A stretch of DNA of 21,863 bases from a virus. Below, one piece after another: positions 1-18,545 of the stretch (the stretch's first letter is position 1; every line of letters starts with the position of its first letter). The stretch lies in the IMG/VR virus record IMGVR_UViG_3300037150_000008, positions 1-21,863 of that record; one strand, written 5' to 3'. Below the pieces are notes generated by a model that was not told the origin of the DNA, did no database searches, and worked only from the letters and a program-made list of their open reading frames with translations. The position numbers were made by a program, and so were the translations under genes.

Positions 1-305
1 CATTCAAGGCCGAAACGATCATTGACCCCTACATGGGCAGCGGGACAACGCTAGTAGCGGCGAAGAACTTGGGGCGCAAGGCAATCGGAATCGAGATCGA
101 GGAGAAATACTGCGAGATCGCGGCGAAAAGATTGAGCCAGTCTGTATTTGAATTTTCGCCAGAAACAACTACCAAACGGCTTCCGCAAGATGTAAACTTG
201 TTCTATGAAGAGCAAGGAAAAGGAATACGTGGCAGCGTACTGGAAGCAGTGGAGGATGAAAAATCAGCCTCCGAGACTCCGCCTTTGTTCATCGTGCCGG
301 AGTGA
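1..305 (+). CDS. Site-specific DNA-methyltransferase (adenine/cytosine-N4 type), C-terminal fragment
   Basis: The reading frame is open from the window edge (first whole codon at 3), so the N-terminus, including any DPPY catalytic motif, lies outside. What is visible is the AdoMet-binding motif DPYMGSGTT followed by the strand [17 protein letters not shown]. This is the usual C-terminal end of beta-class amino-methyltransferases, which place motif I last. Such phage enzymes modify phage DNA, often to escape restriction. The protein normally stops soon after the KRLSQ-V-F helix; here it continues about 50 residues with no recognisable domain. That tail holds a second, degenerate copy of the same motif ([11 protein letters not shown], 171-203). 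The last 101 bases overlap the HNH gene. Methyltransferase identity is secure; target base and specificity cannot be read. Confidence 0.9.
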
Positions 306-801
306 GTTTTTCCCTCATGGTCCACAAAAAAGATGCGACAAATGCCGGACGCTGATATGTAAACAATGCGGAGAGCCATTCATTCCGCAAGAGGCAAGGA
401 TGAGTCAGGTGTTCTGTTGCAAGGATTGTGACAACGCGAGCCGGAAAGGGAGGGTACCCCCACAGTTAGAAGGGAAGCGTGGGACGAAGCCCCGCACCTA
501 CCATCTTCGGAATCGAGATAAGCATGGTTCGGCGGAAGACAGGGAATGGCGTATCGCCATATTTGAGCGGGATCATTACACCTGCCAAGATTGTGGCCAG
601 ACTGGAGGACGGTTGCAAGCACATCATATTGAAGCGTTCAAAGCGCGTCCTGATTTGAGGCACGTTCTCTCAAATGGGCTAACGCTCTGTATTCCCTGCC
701 ACAAGAAAACAGACACGTTCGGATGGGCTAATTATTGGCGTTCACAGATCGCAGCCAAGCGCCTGAGCCAAGAGGTATTCGCCTTTGAGACAATTGCATG
801 A
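205..801 (+). CDS. HNH endonuclease with N-terminal zinc-ribbon region
   Basis: A 198-aa protein. Residues 28-75 hold two Cys clusters (C28/C31/C44/C47 and C52/C55/C71-C72/C75), typical of treble-clef or zinc-ribbon modules preceding phage HNH nucleases. Residues 116-168 form the HNH core: YTCQDCG supplies the first zinc pair (C127, C130), LQAHHIEAF the catalytic His pair (H140-H141), then N157, and CIPCH the second zinc pair (C162, C165) with H166. Such enzymes nick or cut DNA, as homing endonucleases or in packaging. The C-terminus, [12 protein letters not shown], copies the C-terminal motif of the neighbouring methyltransferase and is not part of the HNH fold. The start at 205 has a weak ribosome site; an in-frame ATG at 256, directly after GGAGG, is an alternative giving a 181-aa protein that keeps all motifs. 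The stop overlaps the next ATG (ATGA). Confidence 0.88.
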
Positions 802-3237: not shown

Positions 3238-4047
3238 ATGCAGCCAAAGCCAAAAATAGCTCGTGCCGTCTGGCCCAACGCCGGTATCCGGCAGCGGTAT
3301 CAGCGGCGCATGGGCGCGTTGATACGTGAGATGGCTGATTCTGTGGAGTATTGGCTCCAGGCTAAGCGCAAGGCCACGCCGCCGGTCCTGGCCACTGACT
3401 CAACCCCCGCAGATCAGATGCAGTTTGAGTTCAGGAAGTTGGCGGAACGCTGGCAGGGCAAGTTTGACGACATGGCTCCCAAGGTAGCCGACTCATTCCT
3501 CAAGAACCAATTTAGGGGCACCAGCGCGGCCATGAGGATGGCTCTACGCGAGGCTGGCTGGTCGATTGAGTTCACTATGACAGCGGCTATGCGGGATGCG
3601 TTTGAGGCGTCACTGGCGGAGAATGTGGGGTTAATCAAGTCGATACCCTCTCAGTATTTGCAAGAGGTTGAGGGCATCGTGATGCGCAACTACGCGGCGG
3701 GGCGCGATCTCAAGTCGATGGCGGCGGAGATTCGAGCGCGATACCACGTCGCCGCGAACCGAGCGGTTCTTATTGCAAGGGACCAAGCCAACAAAGCGAA
3801 TGCGGTCGTACAGAGGGCTAGACAGCGAGAAATCGGAGTGACTCAGGCAATCTGGATGCACAGCCATGCAGGAAAGACGCCCAGGCGCACGCACGTCGCC
3901 ATGAACGGCAAGCGGTATGATGTGGCGAAGGGGATGTGGGATTCAGCGGTGCAGAAGTTTATCTGGCCGGGTGAGCTTATTTCTTGCCGGTGTCAGCAGC
4001 GATCGGTATTACCATGGACTCCTGCCGTGAGTCCTGATGTAGTCTAG
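3238..4047 (+). CDS. Minor head protein, MuF/SPP1 gp7 family
   Basis: A 269-aa minor capsid (head morphogenesis) protein, probably bound to the portal and present in few copies. The MuF signature fills residues about 165-257: a helix with RAVLIARDQANKANAV, then WMHSHAGKTPRRTHVAMNGK and the closing PGELISCRCQQRSV, where C250-R-C252 is the hallmark pair. A helical N-terminal region includes RKLAERWQGKFDDMAPKVA (66-84). ATDSTP at 52-57 resembles the AxD(S/A) motif in the portal and capsid protein. The ATG at 3238 follows a G-rich ribosome site at 3227-3232; an upstream TTG at 3178 would overlap the micropeptide and is less likely. The last ~39 bases overlap the minus-strand 58-aa gene, so the final residues may come from the inserted cassette. 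Confidence 0.88.
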   Translation: MQPKPKIARAVWPNAGIRQRYQRRMGALIREMADSVEYWLQAKRKATPPVLATDSTPADQMQFEFRKLAERWQGKFDDMAPKVADSFLKNQFRGTSAAMRMALREAGWSIEFTMTAAMRDAFEASLAENVGLIKSIPSQYLQEVEGIVMRNYAAGRDLKSMAAEIRARYHVAANRAVLIARDQANKANAVVQRARQREIGVTQAIWMHSHAGKTPRRTHVAMNGKRYDVAKGMWDSAVQKFIWPGELISCRCQQRSVLPWTPAVSPDVV

Positions 4048-4185
4048 TTTCGCCTTGCGAATGATGGCCTCTTCTTTGCGGATGCGGTTGTCTTTGATGC
4101 CTTTAGCAATTCCACAAATGGTCCCGATTGGTAGCACCACGAAGAAGAGCAACAGACAGAAAATAAGAACCCCGAAGAAAATCAT
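4009..4185 (-). CDS. Small membrane protein, 58 aa (minus-strand cassette)
   Basis: A 58-aa protein opening MIFFGVLIFCLLLFFVVLP, a single strong membrane span, followed by a basic cytoplasmic-looking tail (GIKDNRIRKEEAIIRKAK) and ending GRSPW. The start is fixed by a perfect AGGAGGT (4190-4196) four bases upstream; an ATG eight codons earlier lacks such a site. The AGGAGGT lies inside the end of the preceding 25-aa gene, whose TGA overlaps this ATG, so the two are coupled. The gene opposes its neighbours and converges on MuF with a 39-base overlap. Topology (short N-out, long basic C-in tail) would suit a superinfection-exclusion, anti-holin or membrane-anchoring role, but there is no recognised family. 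Confidence 0.7.
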   Translation of the reverse strand: MIFFGVLIFCLLLFFVVLPIGTICGIAKGIKDNRIRKEEAIIRKAKLDYIRTHGRSPW

Positions 4186-4259
4186 TTGTACCTCCTGATA
4201 GCCCACCATGCAAGCATGGCAAGTGCGATGAATACCGCGTTGGCGAAAACGTCACTCAT
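4182..4259 (-). CDS. Membrane micropeptide, 25 aa (minus-strand cassette)
   Basis: A 25-aa frame, MSDVFANAVFIALAMLAWW, ending AIRRYK: one hydrophobic span with an acidic N-terminus and a positively charged C-terminus, predicting N-out/C-in topology. Its ATG lies inside the last codons of the zinc-finger gene (8-base overlap), and its TGA overlaps the ATG of the 58-aa membrane gene. Its last codons, encoding RRYK, also form the AGGAGGT ribosome site of that gene. It could be a functional micropeptide or a translated coupling leader. No family is recognised. Confidence 0.55.
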   Translation of the reverse strand: MSDVFANAVFIALAMLAWWAIRRYK

Positions 4260-4383
4260 GCGCTTTCTTCTGTTTCGCCCGCCACTCCCGCAGGTATCTG
4301 GACTGGCATATCGGGCAGCGTTGGCGTCCATCCTTGCCGGTTTTCAGCTTGTGACCACGGCGGCATAAGGGGAAGCGGGTCAT
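4252..4383 (-). CDS. Small zinc-finger protein, 43 aa (minus-strand cassette)
   Basis: A 43-aa protein MTRFPLCRRGHKLKTG... with the pattern C7-x3-H11-x11-C23-x2-C26, then a basic helix YLREWRAKQKKAHE. This is the layout of small C-H-C-C zinc ribbons common in phages and related to HNH or treble-clef modules; it probably binds nucleic acid. A longer overlapping minus-strand frame (4256-4462) has no such motif, so this frame is preferred. The ATG at 4383 lies only about ten bases after the expected transcription start of the promoter at 4400-4429 and has no evident ribosome site, suggesting near-leaderless translation. It is the first gene of the three-gene cassette and could regulate it or act on host or phage DNA. 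It might also be a remnant of an HNH homing nuclease. Confidence 0.62.
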   Translation of the reverse strand: MTRFPLCRRGHKLKTGKDGRQRCPICQSRYLREWRAKQKKAHE

Positions 4384-4399
4384 AGGCAAACTCAAAACC

Positions 4400-4429
4400 A
4401 CTATAAGGCAAATGCCTTTCTTTTGTCAA
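4400..4429 (-). promoter_or_regulatory. Sigma70-type promoter for the minus-strand cassette
   Basis: Read on the minus strand there is a perfect -35 box TTGACA (4424-4429), an 18-base spacer and a -10 box TATAGT (4400-4405; 5 of 6 to consensus). Transcription would start near 4393, about ten bases before the zinc-finger ATG at 4383. The boxes lie in the only non-coding gap in this part of the window (4384-4482), exactly at the head of the three minus-strand genes. The match is visible in sequence; activity is inferred. Confidence 0.65.
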
Positions 4430-4482
4430 GTGGGGTCTTGCGCTCCTATTTTCATAGTGCAATTCTCGAAATCGAGACAGCT

Positions 4483-5817
4483 ATGGAGATCGCTTGCGAC
4501 TCGAAATTGCTAAACCGGCGATACGACGCGGACGGACGCTTGCATATTCTGCGGACGCCAATCTCCAAGGCGACGGTCAATCCCTATTACGGACGCGAGA
4601 TTCCAGACGCGGACAAGCTAGGCCTGGAGCCGGAGCGGGTGTATTACCTGTTGCGCGATCCGGGGGAACTAGCCAAAGCCGCACCATCATTCGCTCGGAA
4701 TCAATTAATGTTCGTTCACACGCCGGTGAGCGCGGACGATCCCAAACAGGACAGCATAGCGGGGACGATAGGCTCGGATGTGGAGTTCCAAGCTCCGTAC
4801 CTGATAGCGGACTTGTGCATTTGGGATGTGGAAGCGATAGCGGGAGTGGAGACGGACACAGTGAGGGAACTATCGGCCTCGTATCGCTATCGGGCAGATA
4901 TGACGCCTGGGATGTACGAAGGACAGCGGTATGACGGTGTAATGAGAGACATTCAGGGGAATCACATTGCGTTAGTTAAATCAGGCCGCGCCGGGTCAGA
5001 TGTGATGGCAGCGGACAGCAAACTGGAGATGAAGATGGAAACGAAATTCGGCAAAGCTCTTTACGCAATTCTCTGTGCTGCATCGCCCAAGCTGGCAGCG
5101 GACTCCGCTCTCAAGCCCCTGGTGATCGGCCTGACGCGCAAGCAATGCGATTTGCGGGCGCTCGAACCCAAACTGCTCGCCATGGACGCCGAGCTTCGCA
5201 AGCCGGAAACCCTGGCCGCGATGCAAGCTGCCAAGGACGCGGAATCCGAAGAGGAGACCGAGGCTGAGAAGAAGGCCCGCGAAGAGAAAGAAAAGGCCGC
5301 AAAGGACAAAAAGGCGAAGGACGGCAAGCGCGGCAAGGACGAATCTTTCGGGGAATGGGCGAAGGAAGAAGAGGACGAGTCCGACCACAAGGCCAAGGAC
5401 GCCGAAGAGGAGTCCGAAGAGGAGTCCGAGGAAGAGCGCAAGGAACGCCTCGAAAAACGCGCCAAGGACAAAAAGGCCAAGGATTGCTCAGCCAAGGACG
5501 AGGAAGAGAAAGCTGAGGACAAGATGAAGCACGCAATGGATGAGTTCAAAGCTGACCTTCGCGCCGCCGACGAAGCGCGCCGCGCTGTTCGCACGGTGGT
5601 TGGGGACGTGCTGGCTCAGGATTCGGCGGAAGGCATCTACAGCTTCGCCCTTGACCAGATGAAGGTTGACCACAAGGATGTGGTTGGCGTGCCGGCTCTT
5701 CGGGCGCTTTTCAATCTCGCACAACAGGCTTCCAAGCCCGCAGTGCGGCAAGCGTTCGATGCGGTTTCAGTGGAAGAGAAGTTCACCGGCGCAGGCCGTC
5801 AAATTCAGGTGATGTGA
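4483..5817 (+). CDS. Prohead protease (DUF2213 type) fused to scaffold-like region
   Basis: A 444-aa protein. Residues 1-180 match the DUF2213 pattern: LHILRTPISKATVNPYYGREI, then RVYYLLRDPGELAKAA, FVHTPVSADD, PYLIADLCIWD, ELSASYRYRADMTPGMYEG and DIQGNHIALVKSGRAG. DUF2213 proteins occupy the capsid-protease slot between portal/MuF and capsid genes. H79, S131 and H161 fall in the order His-Ser-His known from herpesvirus-type assemblin proteases; a triad is inferred. Residues about 250-360 are an extreme Glu/Lys/Asp/Ala coiled-coil-like stretch with repeated AKD units, and 360-444 a helical end, as expected of an internal scaffold in the same polypeptide. The ATG at 4483 begins the conserved region; a TTG at 4423 would lie over the opposing promoter. 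No strong ribosome site is visible. Confidence 0.85.
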   Translation: MEIACDSKLLNRRYDADGRLHILRTPISKATVNPYYGREIPDADKLGLEPERVYYLLRDPGELAKAAPSFARNQLMFVHTPVSADDPKQDSIAGTIGSDVEFQAPYLIADLCIWDVEAIAGVETDTVRELSASYRYRADMTPGMYEGQRYDGVMRDIQGNHIALVKSGRAGSDVMAADSKLEMKMETKFGKALYAILCAASPKLAADSALKPLVIGLTRKQCDLRALEPKLLAMDAELRKPETLAAMQAAKDAESEEETEAEKKAREEKEKAAKDKKAKDGKRGKDESFGEWAKEEEDESDHKAKDAEEESEEESEEERKERLEKRAKDKKAKDCSAKDEEEKAEDKMKHAMDEFKADLRAADEARRAVRTVVGDVLAQDSAEGIYSFALDQMKVDHKDVVGVPALRALFNLAQQASKPAVRQAFDAVSVEEKFTGAGRQIQVM

Positions 5818-17602: not shown

Positions 17603-17961
17603 GTTCGCCCCTTAATACGCTGCTTTTGGACAATTTGGCCTGGGACTTGGTTCTCGACTCTAATGGCGACATTGCGCTTGCGGCTCCTCCCTATGCCGTT
17701 GCTCAGGACGTGGCAAGTGCAATACGGCTGTTTTTAGGGGAGCTTTGGTACGACACGACCCAAGGCGTGGCCTATTGGCAGCAACTTTTAGGCCAGAATC
17801 CTGCTACATCTCAGATCGCGGCGGCATTCAATAAAGCGGCTTTGACAGTACCGGGAGTGGCCACGGCAAATACGGTCATTACCTCGATTGTGGGCCGCAA
17901 AGTAAGCGGGCAAGTGCAATTTACTACCAGCGACAGAACCGGCACTACGGTGAACTTCTGA
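17599..17961 (+). CDS. Baseplate wedge protein, gp25/gpW-like
   Basis: A 120-aa protein of the gp25 family, the wedge subunit that also initiates sheath assembly. Typical elements are LDNLAWDLVLDSNGDIALA at the start, VAQDVASAIRLFLGELWYDT followed by GVAYWQQLLG (the conserved loop of this family), IAAAFNKAALTVPGV and strands to the end (GRKVSGQVQFTTSD). ATGA overlaps the spike stop. The TGA overlaps the ATG of the GIY-YIG gene, so the homing gene is translationally joined to it. In phages without the insertion, the J-like gene would follow directly. Confidence 0.85.
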   Translation: MSSPLNTLLLDNLAWDLVLDSNGDIALAAPPYAVAQDVASAIRLFLGELWYDTTQGVAYWQQLLGQNPATSQIAAAFNKAALTVPGVATANTVITSIVGRKVSGQVQFTTSDRTGTTVNF

Positions 17962-18545
17962 TGAGCGGACACATCTACCTAATCCGAAACCTCGTGAATG
18001 GCAAGGGCTACGTCGGACAGACCGTGACGCTAGTTCCACGCAGGTTTGACAGACATAGGTACAGCGCCAATCAAGGAAGTGGGGATGCCCTCCATCGCGC
18101 CATGCGAAAATATGGGGTTGAGAACTTCTCTGTAACGGAAGTTTTATCCTGCGATCCTCTTTTGCTGAACGATCTTGAAAGGCACTACATCAGATTCTAC
18201 GGTACGCACGCTGTCCTTGGGCATGGCTACAATCTTACAGAAGGTGGAGACGGTTCTCCTGGTTCTGTTCCAACGACAGAGCAGAGAGAGAAAATGTCTA
18301 TTGCACATAAGGGGAAAACGATACCGAAGGAGCAAAGAGACAAGATTTCTGCTGCGTTAAAAGGCAGGGTGGTTTCAAAGGAAACCGCAGCGAGAATATC
18401 GGCAGCAAAAAAAGGTAAAAAGAACTCTACTGAGCATAAGTCTCATATGGCCGAAGCAAGAAGAGGTAAACATCATTCTAAGGAAACAAAACTTAGAATG
18501 AGAACAGCGCAAACAGAGCGTAGAAGGAGAGAAAATGTCAACTAG
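17961..18545 (+). CDS. GIY-YIG homing endonuclease with NUMOD3 repeats
   Basis: A 194-aa free-standing homing endonuclease. The GIY-YIG domain covers residues 1-95: IYLIRN (5-10) and KGYVGQT (15-21) are the two signature strands, R28 and R31 the basic helix, E73 in DLERHYIRFYG the likely metal-binding Glu, and N91 in YNLTEGGDGSPG. Residues 106-187 hold five NUMOD3 DNA-binding repeats at a 17-residue period, such as EQREKMSIAHKGK, EQRDKISAALKGR and ETAARISAAKKGK. Base use is more A/G-rich than in the baseplate genes, a sign of transfer. The gene sits exactly between the gp25-like and J-like genes, starting inside the TGATG and ending ten bases into the J gene; GGAGA within it (18530-18534) supplies that gene's ribosome site. 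Confidence 0.9.
   Translation: MSGHIYLIRNLVNGKGYVGQTVTLVPRRFDRHRYSANQGSGDALHRAMRKYGVENFSVTEVLSCDPLLLNDLERHYIRFYGTHAVLGHGYNLTEGGDGSPGSVPTTEQREKMSIAHKGKTIPKEQRDKISAALKGRVVSKETAARISAAKKGKKNSTEHKSHMAEARRGKHHSKETKLRMRTAQTERRRRENVN

Follow-up and report, generated by a model that had tools for sequence, protein, structure and literature searches.

In an uncultured soil phage, a small expression unit runs against the late operon between the genes for a MuF-like head morphogenesis protein and a head maturation protease. On balance we favor reading it as an antiparallel moron that occupies a recurrent insertion site and consists of a conserved small zinc-finger gene (zf) that limits its own promoter and of exchangeable cargo that acts at the cell envelope. 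What the sequences establish is a promoter directed against the late operon, a conserved zf at or near its head, and interchangeable cargo genes downstream and upstream. The window, i.e., the whole stretch analyzed, comprises the 21,863 nucleotides of a 21.9-kb virus record and has these features in the region concerned:

3238–4047, plus strand: MuF-like head morphogenesis gene; left border of the slot
4009–4185, minus strand: m58, a 58-aa membrane protein, variable cargo gene (phrog_5469 match)
4182–4259, minus strand: m25, a 25-aa single-span membrane microprotein, ATGAGTGA; conserved in this phage group only
4190–4196, minus strand: AGGAGGT, Shine-Dalgarno sequence of m58, 4 nt upstream of its ATG
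4252–4383, minus strand: zf, a 43-aa zinc finger (C7-H11-C23-C26) with a basic helix at the C-terminus, MTRFPLCRRGHKLKTGKDGRQRCPICQSRYLREWRAKQKKAHE
4400–4405, minus strand: −10 hexamer TATAGT, 16 nt from the zf ATG here and 6 nt in most relatives
4405–4418, no strand assigned: inverted repeat AAGGCA-TT-TGCCTT between −35 and −10; candidate operator
4424–4429, minus strand: −35 hexamer TTGACA, conserved in relatives
4483–5817, plus strand: DUF2213 head maturation protease, inferred start at ATG 4483; right border of the slot

The genes, their overlaps, the AGGAGGT and the TTGACA/TATAGT promoter all lie where a preliminary description had placed them. m25 overlaps zf by 8 nt and m58 overlaps m25 by 4 nt (ATGA). 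The 3´ end of m58 overlaps that of the antiparallel MuF gene by 39 nt, so that the cassette extends fully to the left-hand head gene. Neither zf nor m25 is preceded by a Shine-Dalgarno sequence. The longest minus-strand frames at this place are 66 and 68 aa and neither is that of zf, which was thus rightly described as hidden. Automatic gene-chain calling picked wrong starts in some cassettes lacking Shine-Dalgarno sequences, including that of the window, and these were read by hand. The plus strand carries genes for an HNH protein, the portal (Phage_portal_3), MuF, the DUF2213 protease, and minor and major head proteins, followed farther along by apparent tail proteins; as had been claimed, no further minus-strand gene was recognized in the window. 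The HNH endonuclease (205–798, plus strand), which adjoins the portal gene, and, in the tail module, an ORF (17961–18545, plus strand) whose start, GHIYLIRNLVNGKGYVGQT, is GIY-YIG-like are likely homing endonucleases. An inverted repeat (TTGCGCT..AGTGCAA, 4438–4463) located between the −35 of the cassette and the protease is conserved, its arm spacing being constant in 19 distinct relatives, with on average 6.1 of 8 pairs formed. A predicted RNA fold at 4448–4490 (plus strand; −20.5 kcal/mol, z −2.7) puts the protease ATG in a stem, which suggests translational control of the protease. A genome scan aimed at the host gave a single distant match, in a Proteobacteria MAG at 42% identity.

Scanning viral contigs with MuF as query gave 75 related loci, and 73 MuF-protease intervals were examined. 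zf is present on the minus strand in 57 of these, representing 28 distinct DNA sequences. The 16 intervals without it comprise seven truncated contigs (one with a partial zf), six distant loci, L033, in which zf is truncated, and L065 and L066, in which another gene takes its place at the head. All close relatives (MuF at least 69%) with a complete interval carry zf or, in three loci, a gene for a ribbon-helix-helix-like (RHH) protein, and no empty site was found among them. No distinct sequence has a stop in the zf frame, whereas the other two minus-strand frames are interrupted by stops in 19 and 11, respectively. Differences in zf gather at codon position 3 among the distinct sequences, and dN/dS values of 0.30, 0.58 and 0.43 were obtained for zf, m25 and m58, respectively, that of m58 from 2 distinct sequences only. 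Lack of conservation and frequent stops, both named beforehand as grounds for doubt, were thus looked for in relatives and neither was seen. Residues C7, G10, H11, C23, C26 and R35 of zf are invariant, even when two paralogues from other sites are added. Zinc-finger paralogues lie antiparallel upstream of terminase, at 559–422 (minus strand) in L052 and L088, with a leaderless promoter that in L088 contains the palindrome TACGCA-GAG-TGCGTA, and at about 158–328 (minus strand) in L066. In viral contigs, close relatives of zf were found essentially at the MuF-protease locus alone, and a search of 50,697 phage records gave no match. m25 (25–27 aa, single span, mean column identity 71%) occurs in about half of the cassettes, and m58, having been found in only four relatives, is one among many alternative cargos. 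Of the proposed three-gene unit, all three frames are real in the window; across relatives the conserved core is zf with its promoter, m25 being frequent and m58 rare. A fixed three-gene unit is therefore ruled out.

The promoter matches 11 of 12 sigma-70 consensus positions with a spacer of 18 nt, and close relatives with a zf-type promoter conform to TTGnnA-17/18-TAnnnT. The most conserved block is not the hexamers themselves but AAAGGCA between them, which, allowing one-base variants, was seen in each of the group's 25 distinct cassette promoters and was not found ahead of other genes in the genomes scanned. It forms half of AAGGCATTTGCCTT in the window, of AAAGGCAAATTGCCTAT in L034 and of GTACGGCATTTACCGTAC in L007. 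The window palindrome is only marginally better than in shuffled sequences (p about 0.05), and the second arm is missing in several zf promoter types. The distance from the end of the −10 box to the ATG or GTG of zf amounts to 6 nt in the majority of relatives. With this spacing the start codon would coincide with +1 or adjoin it, and the mRNA is predicted to be leaderless. When 80 kb of these phages were scanned for leaderless promoters, 5 were detected, compared to 0–1 in shuffles, and matches before real genes, taken over all loci, mostly precede small zf, RHH or HTH genes. The same −10-to-start geometry is found in the −10-adjacent, leaderless genes of Deinococcus-Thermus (PMC12340547), and lambda cI and the prophage regulator PaaR2 are examples of leaderless regulators (PMC8630535). 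An intrinsic minus-strand terminator was not seen at the 3´ end of the cassette near 4009 and is present in only 6 of 51 related regions. Antiparallel to late genes near terminase lies another gene with a near-perfect leaderless promoter, encoding a small protein rich in Cys, MDDKTVSAVMSYLGRKGGRPP..CPKC.. (L083, 7178, plus strand; L011, 291, minus strand; L012, 1415, minus strand).

In L065, L066 and L033, the cassette is headed by a 55-aa RHH-like protein that starts 6 nt from the −10 box and matches phrog_3887, “transcriptional regulator” (E 4e-4 to 2e-3). In L065 a 23-bp palindrome with 10-bp arms, TTATACCGCAGAGTGCGGTATAA, overlaps the −10. L033 retains zf-type DNA through the −35, whereas the spacer, the −10 and the 5´ half of zf have been replaced by the RHH promoter and gene and a GIY-YIG-like gene, followed by the 3´ half of zf, m25 and an exported protein. 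The head gene has thus been exchanged together with a promoter element, as expected of a regulator and its operator, although co-inheritance of neighboring DNA could mimic this link. A broader and more tentative interpretation, to which we give roughly one chance in three, is that the MuF-protease junction is a general slot with an exchangeable regulator-promoter head, either zf with AAAGGCA or RHH with a palindromic operator, that is leaderless and drives recombined-in genes. Together with the related zf heads at the second antiparallel site upstream of terminase, these would form a family of small self-regulated expression platforms in the late operon.

The same junction was compared in isolated phages whose MuF identity reaches at most 48%. 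Antiparallel genes lie between MuF and protease in Aeromonas phages 56, 4_D05 and 62AhydR11PP and in Burkholderia phage BcepNY3, plus-strand inserts are found in Pseudomonas phage Orisa03 and Acinetobacter phage Brutus, and no insert was found at the junction in Klebsiella phi2.1, Bordetella IFTN4, Pectobacterium ZF40 and Vibrio 1.029.O. In SPP1, three morons (ORFs 8–10) follow the MuF gene gp7 (PMC6316719). Filled, plus-strand-filled and empty junctions argue for a recurrent insertion site with a specialized occupant in the present group. The Aeromonas phages carry at this slot a variable MKISNSKKELARI... protein (L156, 6114–7010; L157, 4283–5326; L146, 4153–4827; all minus strand), an unrelated cargo family. 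In BcepNY3 (L159), an alternative basic 37-aa ORF at about 3280–3393 (minus strand) has an upstream start and a better Shine-Dalgarno sequence, and the annotation of gp14 at the junction is possibly in the wrong frame.

The cassette had been described as having the layout of a moron, and this stands: it is antiparallel, has its own predicted sigma-70-like promoter that is conserved in relatives, and varies in content among them. The junction is empty in distant phages only. Under the strict definition a moron also has its own terminator, which this cassette lacks, and the term is kept here in the wider sense, which does not call for one (PMC6316719). The suggestion of expression in lysogeny did not gain support, as no integrase or resolvase was found in close relatives: tyrosine integrase was not found in 16 related records, except one distant record, nor serine recombinase in 14. 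In the longest close relative (40.8 kb), the sequence stops within a tail gene, and the only part missing from it corresponds to a structural stretch of the window. BcepNY3, with antiparallel genes at the same junction, is presumably virulent.

The length of the MuF-protease interval varies from about 135 to 2070 bp, from zf alone in a gap of about 140 bp (L034, L067, L070) to 2 kb of cargo (L030). Cargo is mostly placed between zf and MuF and sometimes between the promoter and zf, so that zf is not the first gene in L014, L028, L052 and L061. It includes exported proteins of 113–183 aa (about 10 distinct loci), a 48-aa membrane protein (L044–L048), a PTPS/QueD homologue, an AP2-HNH protein, a GIY-YIG-like endonuclease, a REase-like protein and many ORFans. 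Start and stop codons overlap or nearly so at the cargo junctions, as expected for translational coupling. The PTPS/QueD homologue (PF01242, E=6e-24), which shares the L018 interval with a 217-aa uncharacterized protein, is possibly linked to deazaguanine chemistry. The phrog_5469 match of m58 (E=0.006) is to a family of unknown function; no family match assigns a function to m25 or m58, a modest model of an exported cargo protein gave no significant match in PDB, and neither PADLOC nor known families gave a match for the cassette.

Antiparallel moron layout is typical of superinfection-exclusion and anti-defense genes. One possibility, to our mind on the unlikely side, is that m25 and m58 block the entry of other phages' DNA at the inner membrane, with zf serving only as regulator. 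Small membrane or exported products recur as cargo, as seen in m58, the 48-aa protein and the exported proteins, and small exclusion proteins are known from phage Fc02 (PMC9936078). However, m58 does not resemble the HK97 moron product gp15 (BLASTP E=0.16 over 14 residues) and so does not belong with gp15-type exclusion proteins, PADLOC is silent, the PTPS and nuclease cargos are not of exclusion type, and lysogeny is unsupported.

The conservation and direct coupling to zf of m25 as a single-span peptide could also indicate an addiction or toxin-antitoxin-like module, in which a leaderless regulator is followed by a tiny hydrophobic protein that is toxic when uncontrolled, similar to paaR2-paaA2-parE2. 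A three-gene toxin-antitoxin operon headed by a leaderless regulator is known (PMC8630535), and late antisense transcription would silence the cassette. Against this, many cassettes have zf without m25 (L042, L044, L050, L054, L059) and others zf alone, so that a role as antitoxin of m25 does not account for the retention of zf. Without obligate pairing and without any match to a toxin-antitoxin family, we regard such a module as improbable.

An AlphaFold2 model of zf (pLDDT 83) has a knuckle/hairpin followed by a basic helix at 24–42. Neither sequence nor fold comparison with PDB yielded a significant match; the best fold match in BFVD was an uncharacterized 212-aa Klebsiella phage protein (E=0.1, TM 0.75 over 34 residues). 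The Pfam family zf-UDP was rejected, its match (E=7e-5) being below the cut-off and reflecting C/H spacing only. In profile and BLAST searches the family repeatedly showed a weak link to the zinc finger found in HNH endonucleases of phages, the weak profile match covering the finger stretch only. With 43 aa and no nuclease domain, zf is not itself an HNH endonuclease, and from these links we read it as a stand-alone DNA-binding finger. AAAGGCA is conserved in the spacer and a palindrome is present in part of the promoters only. In our reading, zf is a small, putative DNA-binding protein, probably autoregulating, that heads the cassette. The similarity to HNH fingers, which reaches E=5e-6 to phrog_826 for the paralogue at L052 559, and the HNH and GIY-YIG genes among the cargo and elsewhere in these genomes could instead mark zf as a remnant or companion of an HNH homing endonuclease, a selfish DNA or recombination anchor with no regulatory role, the cargo turning over through flanking recombination. 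We consider this doubtful: if zf were a dead remnant, one would expect neither purifying selection nor the retention of a dedicated leaderless promoter and a conserved promoter motif over 28 distinct sequences, and an RHH gene bringing its own promoter would not take its place. Chance antisense frames, suggested by the very short ORFs and the missing Shine-Dalgarno sequences of zf and m25, are hardly credible given that the ORFs and their promoter are conserved, the frame stays open and changes are biased by codon position, which refutes a chance origin for zf and m25, the case for m58 being built on 2 distinct sequences.

In the self-limiting moron that we favor, host RNA polymerase would transcribe the cassette once the DNA is in the cell, independently of late transcription, or alternatively in a carrier or lysogenic state, if any exists; lysogeny is neither needed by the model nor supported. 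The mRNA of zf would be leaderless or nearly so, and the product, as a treble-clef-like DNA binder that is small and basic, may bind AAAGGCA between −35 and −10 and thereby restrain the promoter from which it is expressed. In the present cassette the cargo consists of m25 and m58, whose site of action would be the cell envelope; the most plausible role is that of a small membrane factor for exclusion or for modifying the host. The unit would then be shut off when late transcription of the plus strand passes through it in the antisense direction.

Morons are usually regarded as isolated accidents. Retention of a promoter and a 40-aa regulator-like gene while the cargo is swapped would explain how accessory genes arrive already controlled in a head operon. 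Genes of 25–45 aa without Shine-Dalgarno sequences are likely overlooked by annotation, and the combination of the AAAGGCA promoter with CxxGH..CPIC may serve as a marker for collecting new phage accessory genes from soil and peat viromes.

Among the closest known systems are moron loci in late operons, pid of P22 in particular (PMC3573128). Whereas pid is a single gene, the present locus has a conserved zf head and promoter, changing cargo and a predicted leaderless head mRNA. SPP1 ORFs 8–10 are moron genes at the same junction, between MuF and capsid-building genes, but are unrelated, belong to a phage of a Gram-positive host and lie in a segment with a replication origin; the accessible part of the source describes no antiparallel regulator head (PMC6316719). 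HK97 gp15 (NC_002167), a 62-aa membrane protein, resembles m58 in size and topology but not in sequence, and is located in the tail genes on the same strand; HK97 also has a reverse-strand moron, Gp23. paaR2-paaA2-parE2 shares the arrangement of three small genes with a leaderless regulator first, in phage DNA, but PaaR2 is another type of regulator and the cassette has no toxin or antitoxin homology (PMC8630535). Finally, the HNH-associated fingers of phrog_826 and phrog_1492 share with zf a CxxGH...CxxC finger followed by a basic helix, whereas the zf family consists of stand-alone proteins of 38–60 aa from which the nuclease domain is absent.
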